NCBI RefSeq assembly: GCF_016772315.1
Contig: NZ_CP053482.1
Span: 1,364,001 to 1,428,000 of the forward strand
Length of the DNA: 64,000 nucleotides
Source of the DNA: Thiothrix subterranea
Lineage (GTDB): Bacteria > Pseudomonadota > Gammaproteobacteria > Thiotrichales > Thiotrichaceae
Reading direction: 5' to 3'
This document shows positions 14,201-20,594 of the stretch, piece after piece (the stretch's first letter is position 1; every line of letters starts with the position of its first letter). A program made the translations under genes and the position numbers. Under the pieces are notes generated by a model, which was given only the letters and a program-made list of their open reading frames with translations, did no database searches and was not told where the DNA came from.

Positions 14201-14665
14201 ATGCTCAAGGTATTTTTTTCCTCATTAACAAGGCAAATCATCGGCGCACTGGTGTTTTTAAGCATCATTTCTGCCTGTAGCTTTGACGCCAGAGAACCCG
14301 CACCTAATATGACGTTAGCAAGCACCAGTTGGACATTGAAAACCTTGGATGGCAAACCCGTCACCACCGACAAATTACCCACCATTCAATTTGATAACAC
14401 ACGCATGAATGGCTATTCCGGTTGCAACCAATTTTTCGGCAACTACACCAGCAGCAGCGACGGCATTTTCACCACCAGTGCGGTAGGCGCAACTAAAATG
14501 GCATGTCTCGATGACAAAAATGCCTTGGAACAACAATTTTTTGCCCAACTGGAAAAAGCCAATCAATATGCAATTACCCTTGAACAACTCCATCTCTTGG
14601 ATGACAAGCGTAATATTTTGATGGTTTTGAATGCAGCAAAACCAGCCGCTGACAAAGCAAAATAA
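14201..14665 (+). CDS. META-domain (HslJ-like) lipoprotein
   Basis: 154 residues. The signal peptide ends in a lipobox (IISAC), so a lipoprotein is expected. The META domain shows ASTSWTLKTLDGKPV, then MNGYSGCNQFFGNY and TTSAVGATKMACLD. HslJ relatives are associated with heat shock and novobiocin resistance in E. coli; the molecular role is unclear. A good ribosome-binding site (TTAGGAG) precedes the ATG. A terminator follows at 14697. Confidence 0.85.
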   Translation: MLKVFFSSLTRQIIGALVFLSIISACSFDAREPAPNMTLASTSWTLKTLDGKPVTTDKLPTIQFDNTRMNGYSGCNQFFGNYTSSSDGIFTTSAVGATKMACLDDKNALEQQFFAQLEKANQYAITLEQLHLLDDKRNILMVLNAAKPAADKAK

Positions 14666-14696: not shown

Positions 14697-14728
14697 GGGC
14701 TGGCATTCCCACACTAGATGACCAGCCC
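14697..14728 (+). terminator. Hairpin terminator after the META-domain gene
   Basis: GGGCTGG (14697-14703) pairs with CCAGCCC (14722-14728) around an 18-base loop and is followed by a T-rich stretch (TTCATATTCTT). It separates the lipoprotein gene from the amine-oxidase-like operon. Confidence 0.6.
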
Positions 14729-14777: not shown

Positions 14778-15455
14778 ATGCCTAAGATATTGTCACTACG
14801 CACCTTGCTGCATTGCGCCACGCTGCTCTGTGCGCTAACACACTTACCAGCCGTCGCCAACAATCTTGATCCGCTGAGTGAGGCTGAAATAGCACGTGCC
14901 ACCCAGCGTGCTAATACTGCTCCCCCTGTCTCCACTGTCCGCAGCACCCCAACCAATAGCAGCACAACGACACCCGCACCAGAACTGCTGTTGGTCGAAC
15001 GTCACCCCAACGCCAAAGGCCAAACCGCCCGCCTAGCGGATGTCTACACCTATTACTACAGCACCAATGAAACCCTTATTGAGGTGATTGACCTCGACAC
15101 CAACCAAGTGATTTCCAGCAGACGTGAACAAAACCTGCAACTGCCGCTGACTGCCAACGAATTGCAACGCGCCTCTGCTCTCATCTTTGCCGATGACGAA
15201 CAGCGCAGCCTATTGGATGCCGAATTCAAGCGCATTACCGGGCAAACCCTGAATAACCCCATGCAACAATTACAGGTCAAAGCCTTCGTCTTCCACGCCT
15301 CCAGCTTGCCCGAACAGCTTAATGCCGCGTCTCAGCAATGCGGCTTGCACCGTTGCGCCCAAGTGCTGCTCTACACCGCCGATTCCGTGGTGTTTGAAGT
15401 CAGCCCCATCGTCAACCTGTCCGCAGGTGTCATTACGCAAAACATCGGCTTCTAA
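14778..15455 (+). CDS. Secreted protein resembling the N-terminal (N2/N3) domains of copper amine oxidase
   Basis: 225 residues with a signal peptide (cleavage near VANN). The mature start LDPLSEAEIARA resembles the opening of copper amine oxidases, where PLT/SxxEI begins the N2 domain. VERHPNAKGQTARLADVYTY with a following IEVIDLDTNQVISS fits the small N2/N3 folds. No catalytic motif is present and the resemblance is moderate. Its stop is 12 bases before an amine-oxidase-like catalytic-domain gene in the same frame, but that gene has its own ribosome-binding site and signal peptide, so this is a two-gene arrangement and not an obvious nonsense mutation. Confidence 0.6.
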   Translation: MPKILSLRTLLHCATLLCALTHLPAVANNLDPLSEAEIARATQRANTAPPVSTVRSTPTNSSTTTPAPELLLVERHPNAKGQTARLADVYTYYYSTNETLIEVIDLDTNQVISSRREQNLQLPLTANELQRASALIFADDEQRSLLDAEFKRITGQTLNNPMQQLQVKAFVFHASSLPEQLNAASQQCGLHRCAQVLLYTADSVVFEVSPIVNLSAGVITQNIGF

Positions 15456-15467
15456 GGGAACCCCACC

Positions 15468-16628
15468 ATGCAATACCGCACTCCCCTACTGGCACTCAGC
15501 CTCCTAATCACTTGGCAACAACCCGTGTTTGCTGCCCCTAGCACTGCCTGCACCGGGCAAACACTCAGCAAAACCTTCGCATCCGGTGCAAGCTGGAATC
15601 TCTGCTGGACACCCCGCCAAGCCGAAGGCATTGTCTTATCGCAAGTCATCTACAAAGCCCCCAACCACCCCGCACGGCGTGTACTGGGCGAAGCCGCACT
15701 TTCCCAACTGGAAACCGCCCTTGATGACGGCTCGGTTGCGCCTTTATTTCTGAGCACCGAAGCCGGTTTCGGCGGCAATAATCTGCAAACCCTCAACGCT
15801 GCCGATTGCAGCGGCGGCACACTACAAACCGCCAGCGGGCGCAATGTATTGTGTGCCACCACCCGCGACCACGGCTATTCCTACAAATACACCACCCAAC
15901 GCCAAGGGCAATTGTGGGAATTGAGCAGCCATTCACAAATCGGCTCGCGCAATTACGCGGTACGCTGGCGCTTTTATGAAAACGGTACGATTGAACCCAG
16001 CCTTGGTTTGAGCGGCGAACTACCTGTCGTTGACGCCAGTGCTGCCCAATACGGCTGGCCTGCCATGCAAAGCGGCAAAATCGCCACAGGTTTCACCGAT
16101 CATGCGCTCTGGCGGCTGGATTTCGACCTCGACACCACCCCAGCCAATGACCTAGTAGAAGAAATCAGCAGCACCCCGAGTTCGGATCGCTTACGCAAAA
16201 CCAAAGCCATTGCCCCGCTTAACACCGAAACCGGGCGCAGTTTTGACCCCGAAACCAAACGTTTCTGGCGTATCCGCGATGGCATTCTCACCAATGGCAG
16301 CGTTGGGCAACTCTCCTATGAACTGATTCCCAACCGTTACGACCACAGCCGCGCCAATAGCAGCAATACCCCCTGGCTGGCGCAAGACGTGTTTTTCACC
16401 CGCTACAACGCTTGTGAGAAACACGCTGCCAATAACCCCACCAGCAATTGCACCGCCAACGTTAGCCAATTTACCAACGCTGAGAGCCTCAATCAGCAAG
16501 ACATCGTAGTGTGGTACAAACAAAGCTACCACCACTTACCCCGCAGCGAAGACAGCAATCGCATTGGCACGGTGTGGAGCAGCTTCCAACTGTTACCGCG
16601 TGACTGGCATTCCACCAACCCTTTCTGA
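15468..16628 (+). CDS. Copper amine oxidase-like protein lacking active-site residues (probable pseudoenzyme)
   Basis: 386 residues with a signal peptide (cleavage near VFAAPS) and AAGGGAA-type ribosome-binding sequence. The fold signature of the amine-oxidase catalytic domain is clear: EGIVLSQVIYK, WRFYENGTIEPSLGLSG, LWRLDFDLD, FWRIRDG, and the closing HLPRSED...LLPRDWHSTNPF. Aligned with its neighbour and with the family as I remember it, the TPQ-forming Tyr is Arg161, the copper His-x-His is Phe209-Thr-Asp211, and the catalytic base Asp is Leu95. Only the third copper His (His356) remains. Amine oxidation through TPQ is therefore unlikely; a binding or structural role is an inference. Confidence 0.75.
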   Translation: MQYRTPLLALSLLITWQQPVFAAPSTACTGQTLSKTFASGASWNLCWTPRQAEGIVLSQVIYKAPNHPARRVLGEAALSQLETALDDGSVAPLFLSTEAGFGGNNLQTLNAADCSGGTLQTASGRNVLCATTRDHGYSYKYTTQRQGQLWELSSHSQIGSRNYAVRWRFYENGTIEPSLGLSGELPVVDASAAQYGWPAMQSGKIATGFTDHALWRLDFDLDTTPANDLVEEISSTPSSDRLRKTKAIAPLNTETGRSFDPETKRFWRIRDGILTNGSVGQLSYELIPNRYDHSRANSSNTPWLAQDVFFTRYNACEKHAANNPTSNCTANVSQFTNAESLNQQDIVVWYKQSYHHLPRSEDSNRIGTVWSSFQLLPRDWHSTNPF

Positions 16629-16645
16629 TAGCGAGAACGATAACA

Positions 16646-18973
16646 ATGAAACCATCAGTTTATGCGTATGCCGCCACCGTTCTGCTGGCACTCGGCAATT
16701 TCTTGCCTACGAGCGTACAAGCCGCCGAATTTTGCGCCGATCAGTATTACGTTGACACCACACTCCCCAATCAATCGCGCTGGGATATGTGTTGGGAACA
16801 CCGCAACCGCGAAGGCATTGTGTTGCACCACATCCATTACACCCCCAAGAACGGCACGCGCCGCATGGTGCTGTATCAAGCAGCCGTGGCACAAATTCAC
16901 GTTCCCTACGATGACAATGGCGCACGCTACCATGACGTATCCGACTATGGCTTGGGCAATAACTACATGTCTGCATTGACGGCACAAGAATGCGTTGGCG
17001 GGCAACTGCTCAGCTATGCAGGCAAAAATGTGCTGTGCCAACAAGTCACACCCCGCGACGATGCTTACAGCGTCGACAATGACCGTTTGCAGGGCGATGC
17101 CCTCAGTTTGTTCAGCGTTTCCGCTATCGGTGCGTACAACTACATCCCCGAATGGCGCTTTCTGGATGACGGCGCGATCGAACCCGGCATCGGTGCAACC
17201 GGCGCTCTGCAACGTTTTGGCGCGAGTAACATTGCTCAACACGGCTGGCTCTTGGAAAGCAATAAAGTCGGCATTGCCCACCTACACAATTTTTTCTGGA
17301 AACTGGACTTCGACCTCGGCGGCACCGGCACCGACGATGTAGTGGAAGAAATCAACCACACCCAAAACGCAGGAAAACTAGCACGCACCCACACGCCATT
17401 CACCAGCGAAGCCGCCCGCTCGGTCGATCCGGCAAGCTTGCGCAGTTGGCGCGTTATGGATGGCAGCCTGAAAAACAGCAAAGGTTTGCCACTCTCCTAC
17501 GAAATCCAGCTCCCCGAATCGTTACAACGCGATGTAGGCCCCAGCACCGAACCCTTTACCCACAACGATTTCTACGTCACTAAGCAAAAAAGCTGTGAAT
17601 TATTCGCCTCCCACAACCCGACGACCAACGCCTGTGCGGAAAACCTCAGCGCGTTTGTCAATGGTGAAAACCTTAGCGGGCAAGACATTGTGGTATGGCC
17701 TTCCACCACGTTCTACCACATGCCCCGCGCCGAAGACGCACCGCGCATGGATACCCACTGGAGTCACATCCGCGTCATTCCTCGCGACTGGCACGACAAA
17801 AATCCACTGAGCAATAGCGCGGAAACCACGGCTGATACCACCCCACCGCCGCCACCTCCTCCGCCGCCTGCGACTGGCAGCGTGTCGAATAATGCCAACG
17901 GTATCAGCGTCAATGGCAACCTAAGCGACTGGGCAAGCCTGACATCGTTTGGCACTGATCCCGATGACGTGACGGGTACTAACAACAAACTCAACTGGCT
18001 AGAAGCATGGGCAGCCAACGACACTGACCGCGTTTACCTTGCCTACAAAACCAAAGGTAACATCGACACCAGTGGTTTCTGGGGCTATCAGGCGTATTTG
18101 GATACTGACGCCAGCACCACCAGCGGCTACCGCACCGGCGCATTGGGCGCGGACTACTTAGTGGAAGGCGCGAACCTGTGGCGTTATACCGGCGACGGCA
18201 CAAGCTGGAGTTGGGCATACCAAGGCAATATGACCGCGCAAACCAGTGGCAATGCCGCAGAATTCAGCTTCCCACGTAGCTGGTTAGGCAATAGCAATGA
18301 ATTACGGGTTCTGTTCTGGGGCAACAATGCCGCGTTTGGTGGCGATGCGAAAGACGCTTACCCCGATGGCGCATTCAACACCGCCAGCACCACGCGCTAT
18401 TTCACTTATAAAATGTATATACCAACCACCACCGGAACCAACAGCATCAGCAACCCTGTCACCAGTCTTACCATCAATGGCAATCTGAGTGACTGGAACA
18501 GCATGACTTCTTTCGGTATCGACCCAACCGACGTGAGCGGTGCTAATAACCCGTTGGATTGGCAAGAAGGCTGGCTGGCGCACACCAGCAGCAATGTTTA
18601 CCTCGCTTACCGCACCCTCAATGCGGTAGATACCAGCAAATTCTGGGGCTACCAAGTCTATTTCGACACCGACAGCAATGGCGCAACCGGCTACCAAAAC
18701 AGTGCCTTGGGCGCGGAATACATGCTGGAAGGTCAAACCGTTTGGCGCTATACCGGCGATGGCGACAGTTGGAGCTGGACACCCCAAGGCACGACCACCA
18801 ACGCGGCAAGCGGGCAAACCGCAGAATTCAGCTTTCCGCGTAGCTGGTTAGGCAACCCAACCAACTTGCGCCTAATGTTCCGAGGCAATAACGCTGCCTT
18901 TGGTGGCACGGCTGAAGACGTTTATCCGAATGCCACGGCAAACCCGCGCTATTTCACGTACCGTTTTCAATAA
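16646..18973 (+). CDS. Divergent copper amine oxidase-like protein with two C-terminal surface-binding modules
   Basis: 775 residues. Signal peptide ends near VQAAEF. The amine-oxidase-like catalytic domain (about 28-390) keeps the base Asp97 (HDVSDYGLG), copper ligands His212 and His214 (AHLHNFFWKLD) and His358 (YHMPRAED). The TPQ-position Tyr164 is present, but in the context A-Y-N instead of N-Y-D/E. A poly-proline linker near residue 400 leads to two roughly 175-residue homologous modules (411-591 and 598-775), each starting NGNLSDW and containing YTGDG and EFSFPRSWLGN, similar to CBM9/DOMON-like sandwiches. It is 17 bases after its paralogue and 1 base before the YtkA-like gene. Confidence 0.75.
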   Translation: MKPSVYAYAATVLLALGNFLPTSVQAAEFCADQYYVDTTLPNQSRWDMCWEHRNREGIVLHHIHYTPKNGTRRMVLYQAAVAQIHVPYDDNGARYHDVSDYGLGNNYMSALTAQECVGGQLLSYAGKNVLCQQVTPRDDAYSVDNDRLQGDALSLFSVSAIGAYNYIPEWRFLDDGAIEPGIGATGALQRFGASNIAQHGWLLESNKVGIAHLHNFFWKLDFDLGGTGTDDVVEEINHTQNAGKLARTHTPFTSEAARSVDPASLRSWRVMDGSLKNSKGLPLSYEIQLPESLQRDVGPSTEPFTHNDFYVTKQKSCELFASHNPTTNACAENLSAFVNGENLSGQDIVVWPSTTFYHMPRAEDAPRMDTHWSHIRVIPRDWHDKNPLSNSAETTADTTPPPPPPPPPATGSVSNNANGISVNGNLSDWASLTSFGTDPDDVTGTNNKLNWLEAWAANDTDRVYLAYKTKGNIDTSGFWGYQAYLDTDASTTSGYRTGALGADYLVEGANLWRYTGDGTSWSWAYQGNMTAQTSGNAAEFSFPRSWLGNSNELRVLFWGNNAAFGGDAKDAYPDGAFNTASTTRYFTYKMYIPTTTGTNSISNPVTSLTINGNLSDWNSMTSFGIDPTDVSGANNPLDWQEGWLAHTSSNVYLAYRTLNAVDTSKFWGYQVYFDTDSNGATGYQNSALGAEYMLEGQTVWRYTGDGDSWSWTPQGTTTNAASGQTAEFSFPRSWLGNPTNLRLMFRGNNAAFGGTAEDVYPNATANPRYFTYRFQ

Positions 18974-18974
18974 T

Positions 18975-19385
18975 ATGCAAATAAAACTGCTCACCGTAAC
19001 ACTCAGCCTGCTAGTGGCAGGCTGTCAAAACAGCACGGCGAATACCGTCTGGCAGCTTCAACAAGCCAGCAGCAAAGCGCTGTATCAAGCCACCGTGACG
19101 TGTGCCGCGCCGCCCAGCGTCGGCACATTTCAGGAATGCCGCTTGCAAGTCGACAGCCCGCAAACCCTACCCACCGATCTCGTGATTGCCGTGGATGGCG
19201 GAATGCCATCCCACGGACACGGCTTACCCACCGCCCCGCAAGCGATACCCACGGGCAAACCCGGTGAATTCCGCATCGACGGTTTAAAATACAGTATGCC
19301 GGGCGAATGGGTACTGGGTTTCTGGCTGCATTCGGATAACGCCCCCGCCGCACAAGACAAAATCGTCTTTTGGTTCACGCTATGA
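18975..19385 (+). CDS. YtkA-like lipoprotein
   Basis: 136 residues from MQIKLL, one base after the preceding stop. The lipobox is LLVAGC. The C-terminal half carries MPSHGHGLPTAP and a later YSMPGEWVLGFWL, the pattern of YtkA-like domains, which are often encoded beside di-haem cytochrome c peroxidases. The His/Met content suggests possible metal binding, but this is inference. The stop overlaps the MauG-like start by 4 bases (ATGA), so the two are translationally coupled. Confidence 0.7.
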   Translation: MQIKLLTVTLSLLVAGCQNSTANTVWQLQQASSKALYQATVTCAAPPSVGTFQECRLQVDSPQTLPTDLVIAVDGGMPSHGHGLPTAPQAIPTGKPGEFRIDGLKYSMPGEWVLGFWLHSDNAPAAQDKIVFWFTL

Positions 19386-20560
19386 AAACCCTTACCTACT
19401 TACTGCTGTTGGTAGCGCTGCTAGGCATGAAAGGCACGCACAGCACCAATCACAACTGGACAGCAGCAGAACTCGCCACACTGCAATCCCTATCGCGGGC
19501 AAACTCCCCCCCCGCAACAGACCCCAGCAACCGCTTTGCGCAACACCCACCAGCACTAGCGCTGGGGCGGGAATTATTCTTCGATCGACGTTTAAGCCGC
19601 CATGGGAATATCGCCTGCGCCACCTGCCACCAACCGGATAAAGCCTTCAGCGATGGCAAGCCGGTAGCCATCGCCTTAGCCACTGGCACACGCAACACCC
19701 CCTCCCTGCTCGGCGTTGCCCATCAAGACTGGTTTTTCTGGGACGGGCGCAAAGACAGCCTGTGGTCGCAAGCCTTAGAACCGTTGGAAAACCCCGCCGA
19801 ACACGGTTTAACCCGCACCGAAGTCGTTCGCTTATTGCTCACCGACACCCACTACCAACAACAATACCAAACCCTACTGAAAAACATTCCGACACTGGAT
19901 GCGCTCCAACAGCTACCAACCGCCGCCTCACCCCAAGGCAATTTGGCGCAATTACAAGCCTGGAAACAGCTTCCACAAGCCCAGCGGGAACAGATTGATG
20001 CAGTATTTGCTGCCACGGGCAAATTCCTTGCCGCCTACGTCAGCAGCCTAAGCCCTGCCCCCAATAAACTCGACACACTCGCCCAGCAACCTGCCGCACT
20101 CACCCCAAACGAAAGCGCCGGAGCCAAACTGTTTATCGGCAAAGCGCAATGCATCCTCTGCCATTCCGGTGCATTGCTAAGTAACCAAACTTTCCAAAAT
20201 ATCGGCACAGGTATTCTCGGCAAGGACAGCGGACGGGCGGCGGTATTGGACACCCTGCGCACCGATCGTTTCAATTGCCAAGGCAAACACAGCGACGCAC
20301 CCCCAGAAAACTGTACCGAATTGAAATTCCTAACCCGTAGCCGCCACGCCGTCAACGGGGCATTTAAAGTACCGAGCTTGCGCAATGTCGCAAAAACCGC
20401 GCCTTATTTTCACGACGGGCGTTTTGCCACCTTGGAACAGGTCGTCGATTACTACACGCAAGCCGCCCAACCCAACGCGCAAAACGACAACGATCTTCCC
20501 CTCATTCAACTCAGCGATACCGAAACACAACAACTGCTCGCATTTCTTAAGGTGTTATAG
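19382..20560 (+). CDS. MauG-like di-haem cytochrome c peroxidase
   Basis: 392 residues from MKTLTYLL, the start that overlaps the preceding stop. The signal peptide is followed by LGRELFFDRRLSRHG, the first haem-binding CATCH (about residue 78) and the second CILCH (about 257). The C-terminal part has FKVPSLRNVAKTAPYFHDGRF. This is the CcpA/MauG family. Members reduce peroxide or, as in MauG, oxidise protein side chains to build quinone cofactors. Which applies here cannot be decided from sequence, but it is the last gene of the amine-oxidase-like operon. A strong terminator follows. Confidence 0.9.
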   Translation: MKTLTYLLLLVALLGMKGTHSTNHNWTAAELATLQSLSRANSPPATDPSNRFAQHPPALALGRELFFDRRLSRHGNIACATCHQPDKAFSDGKPVAIALATGTRNTPSLLGVAHQDWFFWDGRKDSLWSQALEPLENPAEHGLTRTEVVRLLLTDTHYQQQYQTLLKNIPTLDALQQLPTAASPQGNLAQLQAWKQLPQAQREQIDAVFAATGKFLAAYVSSLSPAPNKLDTLAQQPAALTPNESAGAKLFIGKAQCILCHSGALLSNQTFQNIGTGILGKDSGRAAVLDTLRTDRFNCQGKHSDAPPENCTELKFLTRSRHAVNGAFKVPSLRNVAKTAPYFHDGRFATLEQVVDYYTQAAQPNAQNDNDLPLIQLSDTETQQLLAFLKVL

Positions 20561-20570
20561 CCACACGCTA

Positions 20571-20594
20571 AAACGCCCGCTTGAGCGGGCGTTT
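20571..20594. terminator. Bidirectional terminator
   Basis: AAACGCCCGC, loop TTGA, GCGGGCGTTT: a perfect 10-bp stem between the convergent MauG-like gene and the ferredoxin gene. A-rich and T-rich flanks let it serve both strands. Confidence 0.85.

Follow-up and report, generated by a model that had tools for sequence, protein, structure and literature searches.

Results

In a 64,000-nucleotide stretch of the Thiothrix subterranea genome (NZ_CP053482.1, positions 1,364,001 to 1,428,000 of the forward strand; hereafter the window), five tightly spaced plus-strand genes, P0001 to P0005, form an operon with gaps of 12, 17, 1 and -4 bases between successive genes. To judge from gene order here and in other genomes, the operon joins two modules that also occur apart, a split copper amine oxidase (CAO) and a pair of genes encoding a YtkA-like and a MauG-like protein. 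The coordinates of the open reading frames (ORFs) bear out the packing and orientation reported in a preliminary description of the locus.

14778..15455, plus strand: P0001, 225 residues, predicted secreted N-terminal (D2–D3) half of a CAO as a protein of its own
15468..16628, plus strand: P0002, 386 residues, degenerate CAO catalytic (D4) domain
16646..18973, plus strand: P0003, CAO catalytic domain at about residues 26–390, followed by a Pro-rich linker and a pair of C-terminal repeats
18975..19385, plus strand: P0004, YtkA-like lipoprotein with the motif GGMxxHxHGLPTxP...MxGxW, a candidate copper-binding partner
19382..20560, plus strand: P0005, MauG/MbnH-like di-haem c-type protein with CATCH and CILCH motifs and Tyr358 at the MauG axial-ligand position

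We took P0005 to start at the ATG at 19382; the ORF list places its start at the TTG at 19370. Inspection by eye, without a predictor, gave signal peptides for P0001 to P0003 and for P0005, and a lipobox for P0004.

A split amine oxidase with a degenerate paralogue

P0003 matches the CAO family PF01179 (3e-46), has the D4 fold, and retains the three copper-binding His, the catalytic Asp and the precursor Tyr (D97, Y164, H212, H214 and H358), all of which are invariant in two overlapping row sets (44/44 and 69/69). The residue preceding the Tyr, which in CAOs would become the cofactor topaquinone (TPQ), is usually Ala and in neither set ever Asn, and the rows depart in this from the CAO consensus T-x-x-N-Y-D/E. 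As controls we used 11 ordinary CAOs drawn from a 249-genome phylum sample; every one is a single ORF of 658–757 residues with the catalytic residues of P0003 and an N-Y-D motif. In the 18–19 kb fetched around each control, the sole trace of a P0005-type gene is a partial match of 15 bits in L186; at L180 an unrelated ORF carries a pair of CxxCH motifs but is not matched by the P0005 profile. The operon departs from these single-chain enzymes in carrying D2–D3 and D4 on separate ORFs.

P0002 also matches PF01179 (5.5e-28), and in the window's own genome this family matches P0002, P0003 and nothing else. It is without the HxH pair that binds copper, the catalytic Asp and the Tyr precursor: in the rows as aligned, the equivalents of His212, His214 and Asp97 are absent from 52/52, and the Tyr is retained in 6/52. 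The fold is kept despite these losses, and a CAO tree places all 53 P0002 rows in a single clade (support 0.998). The node that sets all P0002 and P0003 rows together apart from the controls is weak (0.48), and only the P0002 clade was used. Alignment and tree describe a degenerate subunit that lost its copper and base residues yet was retained as one clade.

P0001 has no good Pfam match in a domain scan, but an NCBIfam scan aligns it to positions 10–126 of the 648-position CAO model PRK11504 (1e-5), a model matched by all 22 aligned P0001-type sequences, P0001 included (best 4.9e-10). When the predicted model of P0001 with P0002 is compared with known structures, Foldseek aligns about 650–680 columns to whole CAOs (best E 1.5e-33). 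An identity as an Arf-like or glutamyl-tRNA-reductase-like protein, prompted by sub-cut-off Pfam matches and, for Arf, by weak PDB matches (E 0.027 at best), was set aside in favor of CAO D2–D3. The earlier pairing of CAO-like proteins with a MauG-type gene, and its reading of P0002 as inactive-looking and P0003 as the more complete paralogue, are upheld by these assignments and by the P0005 domain described below. Its label for P0001, amine-oxidase N-domain-like, agrees with the PRK11504 match but missed that P0001 is the absent half of a split enzyme.

The two similar repeats at the C terminus of P0003 (window positions 17876–18970) have no significant Pfam match and are modelled poorly (predicted local-distance score, pLDDT, 24–74 by block). 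Related stretches occur in many long family ORFs of up to about 2500 residues, and the repeats are perhaps a surface or sheath module.

The YtkA–MauG pair

P0004 matches YtkA (PF13115) at 3.3e-5, with 24.9 bits against a gathering cut-off of 25.9, and its M77, H80, H82, M108 and W112 are invariant across 23 aligned sequences. It has no significant match among solved structures; the nearest is the copper-resistance protein 9ll2 (E 0.17), with which the Trp and Met of P0004 align, so that these residues may be structural.

P0005 matches CCP_MauG (1.8e-37) and has the two CxxCH motifs of a MauG-type di-haem domain; its best solved match is 6e1c, a 'Di-heme enzyme'. Its two best NCBIfam models, TIGR04039 'MbnH family' (7.9e-42, 143.5 bits) and TTQ_mauG (TIGR03791; 1.8e-39, 135.7 bits), are both matched below their curated cut-offs of 362.85 and 443.85 bits. 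Tyr358 aligns with MauG Tyr294, the distal ligand of the low-spin haem, a role that the residue predicts for Tyr358 as well. It is retained in 32 of the 33 rows that cover the site; the one exception, the haem domain of the oxidase at L083 described below, has a His there. Glu140 aligns with MauG Glu113; the Trp of an FWDGR motif aligns with MauG Trp93 and is replaced by Ala in four Cocleimonas rows. P0005 thereby differs from classical bacterial cytochrome c peroxidase, in which a Met is the distal ligand of the electron-entry haem.

The most constant neighbor of a P0005-type MauG is YtkA. A YtkA-like gene, or such a domain in an adjoining gene, lies beside P0005-like genes at 31 of 38 loci outside the family (10/10, 7/10, some of them weak at 32–42 bits, and 14/18). 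A phylum sample of 299 genomes gave 12 genomes outside the family with a P0005 match, and a CAO profile search run without a positive control found no match in these 12 YtkA–MauG genomes. At some loci the YtkA-like domain lies within a longer ORF just 5' of the MauG-like gene (L163:2772-4040 and L165:2762-4009, minus strand; L162:46-1404 and L166:1-1206, plus strand), and the three of these long ORFs that were scanned, in L162, L163 and L165, each match Amidohydro_2 of Pfam, which gives the pair a third context.

Distribution of the operon and its modules

Among the named records matched, Thiothrix species are the closest; Thiolinea, Leucothrix and Cocleimonas are also represented. Half of the 40 family regions fetched around P0003 matches carry the five genes in identical order; the other 20 comprise 10 lone P0003 genes, six cut contigs, three trios of P0001 to P0003 without MauG, and one region (L062) without P0003. 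Across 63 family genomes, P0001 is found in 28 (E<=1e-5), P0005 in 29 (E<=1e-30) and both in 25 (Fisher p 2.3e-10). Shared order and co-occurrence together argue that the arrangement is not chance, and they provide the recurrence across genomes on which the preliminary description had made its proposal depend. The three genomes with P0001 only (G011, G033 and G034) are 80, 56 and 69% complete; three of the four with P0005 only have more distant proteins (34–38% identity), and the fourth holds a fragment. This fragment, at G053:C1:4040294-4040572, is a 94-residue remnant of the P0005 C terminus with 65% identity, in the same genus and in a genome with no P0001 or P0003 matches, and suggests loss of the operon.

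Scanning genome contigs yielded 65 loci; judged by record title and contig identity, 33 lie in the family and 32 outside it, the latter in Granulosicoccaceae, Pseudomonadales, Methylococcales, Hydrocarboniphaga, other gammaproteobacterial metagenome-assembled genomes (MAGs) and Chloroflexota MAGs. Of the outside loci, 27 have P0001, P0002 and P0003, with P0005 as well in one of them (L130), and four have P0001 and P0003 only. P0001 thus accompanies P0003 in 31 of the 32, the remaining locus being a cut contig. Two further layouts were seen: a second trio without an adjacent YtkA–MauG pair on the 446-kb plasmid pTfr446 of Thiothrix fructosivorans (L096), in a strain with the five-gene operon at another site, and a doubled P0002-P0003-P0001-P0002-P0003 array without MauG in two family genomes (L048 and L051).

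Association of MauG with the oxidases

In a MauG tree the 21 family proteins group in a single clade (support 0.995). L130, a Pseudomonadales MAG, has a MauG gene 30 bases after the P0003 of a trio, and its product falls outside this clade, in a clade of nine (support 0.8) shared with L158, L159 and L164, from genomes with a CAO trio, with L083, L210, L208 and L211, from genomes with galactose-oxidase-like genes, and with L221. This grouping is suggestive only, four of the nine members having come from searching CAO-bearing genomes. Should the tree be correct, MauG joined the split CAO on two occasions, and two such arrivals would point to a functional link. When 23 outside genomes were searched, that of L130 included, 13 had some P0005 match at E<=1e-20 and 10 had none.

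No Trp or Tyr of P0001 to P0003 is strictly confined to MauG-linked rows. Trp47 and Trp197 of P0002 come nearest to tracking the linkage, both occurring in 22/22 linked rows and in L130 and in 1/5 unlinked family rows; in outside rows Trp47 is found in 12/28 and Trp197 in 9/28. Lineage may explain this pattern, but these would be the first sites in the CAO proteins to examine for modification. Other candidate markers were rejected: Trp370 of P0002 and Trp201 of P0003 also occur in outside rows (9/28 and 14/31) and in unlinked family rows, and Tyr357 of P0003, present in 39/39 family rows, in 2/31 outside rows and not in L130, marks lineage.

The YtkA–MauG pair also directly adjoins galactose-oxidase-like proteins, at L083:3-7211 (plus strand) and L210:23-7483 (minus strand). 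These proteins have about 2400 residues or more, match GO-like_E_set (3.8e-19 and 2.7e-19), and carry a fused C-terminal di-haem domain (CCP_MauG/RoxA-like); both keep the Cys, two Tyr and two His that we would expect of a galactose oxidase. The beginning of a similar protein, 50% identical to that of L210, lies beside the pair at L159. Among 369 genomes of the class, P0005-like genes occur in 17 (E<=1e-50), galactose-oxidase-like genes in 12 (E<=1e-8) and both in five (p 7e-5; by genus, four genera, p 0.0012), and the two are adjacent in one of the five shared genomes.

Flanking elements

The operon is bordered by the following features.

14201-14665, plus strand: META-domain/HslJ-like gene, directly 5' of the operon
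14697..14728, plus strand: inverted repeat GGGCTGG...CCAGCCC in the interval that separates the operon from the META gene, a possible terminator read from the sequence
20571..20594, plus strand: GC-rich inverted repeat 3' of the operon, a possible terminator read from the sequence and absent from the terminator-scan list

The arms of the upstream repeat are identical in the window and in four of eight aligned relatives. Scans of the window gave no excess over shuffled sequences for terminators (9 found, 10.1 expected) or for promoters.

Discussion

Our analyses describe a CAO divided between genes, a catalytically degenerate paralogue retained beside its active counterpart, and a YtkA–MauG pair that recurs beside other genes. 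We propose the following model, which we hold with about as much belief as doubt: the operon encodes a secreted hetero-oligomeric CAO together with two accessory proteins that deliver copper and carry out an oxidative maturation or priming step. P0001 would supply the D2–D3 domains and P0003 the active D4, with three His on copper, the catalytic Asp and the Tyr that is to become TPQ, while P0002 would be a pseudo-enzyme D4 standing in for the second subunit of the CAO dimer. The C-terminal repeats probably tether P0003 to the cell surface. P0004 and P0005 would make up a module of their own, able to move and serving secreted copper oxidases, in which P0004 carries copper and P0005 uses peroxide, a product of CAO turnover, to oxidize an aromatic residue of a partner; P0004 is the likeliest such partner, the oxidase a less likely one. 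As a result, copper would be loaded or the oxidase primed. The sequences themselves show the gene order, the split layout, which residues are kept or lost, how widely the genes are spread, the MauG-type residue at the haem-ligand site and the separate occurrence of the two modules; subunit assembly, TPQ, copper on P0004, what P0005 acts on and makes, and the surface location are inferred.

How does this arrangement compare with known systems? Relative to the TPQ-containing CAOs of PF01179 (AGAO, ECAO, HPAO-1), it differs in its split D2–D3 and D4 genes, its additional pseudo-enzyme D4 and the missing Asn before the Tyr; all CAOs structurally characterized by 2012 are reported to be homodimers of one chain, and only 5–10% of TPQ is left in Asn404Ala of yeast HPAO-1 (PMC3382800). 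A holo form of AGAO N381A exists, by the title of its entry (7wir). The closest parallels are mtoX-SCO1-mauG and corA-corB. In the former, a copper enzyme (methanethiol oxidase), a copper-chaperone-type gene and a MauG-like gene are clustered in operon-like fashion; the oxidase is of the unrelated SBP56 type, SCO1/SenC takes the place of the YtkA-like protein, and tryptophan tryptophylquinone (TTQ) is proposed (PMC5739008). In corA-corB and mopE-SACCP a small surface copper protein is co-transcribed with a di-haem gene, and the authors suggest that the di-haem protein oxidizes a Trp neighboring two His, turning it into kynurenine (PMC3912023). These systems have no CAO. The analogy with these pairings, together with its two His, two Met and invariant Trp, makes P0004 our first choice as the partner of P0005. 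P0005 also resembles MbnH of the MbnH–MbnP pair and the MauG of TTQ formation, the MbnH and TTQ-MauG models being its two best NCBIfam matches, both far below cut-off. These systems differ from ours in that neither a methylamine dehydrogenase nor an MbnP gene is among the operon's five genes. Galactose oxidase is, like CAO, a peroxide-making copper enzyme with a Tyr-derived cofactor, and its relatives at L083 and L210 adjoin the same pair; it belongs to a different fold family, and those relatives have a C-terminal haem domain of their own. The preliminary description knew of no system of this composition, and in the literature searched, outside which most subscription papers lie, we likewise found no described CAO–MauG operon, nor anything on such a system in connection with CAO heterodimers, pseudo-enzyme CAOs, YtkA with MauG or galactose oxidase with MauG.

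Several observations weigh against the model. Copper binding by P0004 is predicted from its residues, the nearest solved match being 9ll2 (E 0.17). Searched against the PDB, the P0001 profile alone finds CAOs with no E value better than 0.34, so that the identity of P0001 depends on its NCBIfam match and on fold prediction; the predicted model of P0001 with P0002 fails to reproduce the subunit packing (predicted template-modelling score 0.59, root-mean-square deviation about 26 Å to whole CAOs). Among the 24 outside CAO loci where 1.5 kb or more of sequence follows P0003, 23 have no adjacent P0005-type gene; P0001-P0002-P0003 is thus the wider core, and MauG is not indispensable in the operon. 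P0003 stands alone in 9/33 family loci and P0002 is absent from 4/32 outside loci, so the pseudo-enzyme is not always needed. Finally, most outside loci show no copper oxidase beside the YtkA–MauG pair, among the neighbors scanned, which were only some of those present.

The lone P0003 genes, the loci without P0002 and the unreproduced packing of D2–D3 on D4 would also suit another explanation, in which P0002 is a dead relic, P0003 an independent homodimeric enzyme and P0001 a separate structural protein, the genes being merely co-regulated. We regard this as distinctly unlikely: P0002 is kept as one clade across distant lineages without catalytic residues, P0001 matches CAO D2–D3 by sequence and fold order, and P0001 lies beside P0003 at every uncut outside locus. 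Alternatively, P0005 could be a peroxidase that removes or uses CAO-made H2O2, with no protein modified, an explanation that we consider possible but unlikely. CAOs release H2O2 (PMC3382800). Galactose oxidase does too, and the position of the pair beside the galactose-oxidase-like proteins of L083 and L210 would agree with such a role. The explanation leaves YtkA out of account, however, and the surroundings of the 11 control CAOs hold no P0005-type gene, save the partial match in L186 and the unrelated ORF of L180. The ligand site, moreover, has Tyr in nearly all rows and not the Met of classical bacterial peroxidases.

A dedicated CAO maturase, which would complete TPQ or another center in P0003, where Ala-Tyr is perhaps a poor self-processor, or else modify P0002, is an alternative in line with the cofactor maturation suggested in the preliminary description. 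The Asn missing from all P0003 rows and present in 11/11 controls is compatible with that suggestion, as are the low TPQ content of HPAO-1 Asn404Ala, the co-occurrence of P0001 and P0005, and the Trp47/Trp197 pattern of P0002. This pattern also tracks lineage, however, and the Ala-Tyr motif and catalytic residues recur outside the family, where 23 of the 24 judgeable loci lack an adjacent MauG; 10/23 outside genomes, whose completeness is not given, lack a P0005 match altogether at the threshold used. The holo form of AGAO N381A and the finding of YtkA–MauG without a split CAO, with YtkA as the constant MauG neighbor, likewise speak against it. MauG-driven cofactor maturation is thus possible, but MauG is not generally required beside a split CAO, and we think a dedicated maturase quite unlikely.

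What is the relevance of these modules occurring both together and apart? Under our model of a hetero-oligomeric CAO with an accessory pair, one may go further and ask whether YtkA and MauG together are a general and transferable means of maturing or priming those secreted copper oxidases that have a modified-Tyr cofactor. We consider this rather unlikely; if true, such a system would serve both the Ala-Tyr split CAOs, in two apparently separate linkages, and galactose-oxidase-like proteins, and would overturn the view that the TPQ and galactose-oxidase cofactors always form without helper proteins. The split CAO family spans two phyla, and a chain cut in two with a retained dead subunit would naturally separate catalysis from dimerization, which would help in studying how the paired active sites of CAOs influence each other. 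The natural absence of the 'strictly conserved' Asn before the precursor Tyr offers a ready test of the role of this residue, and the YtkA–MauG pair can be tested as a candidate for loading copper or oxidizing protein in the service of several unrelated copper oxidases.

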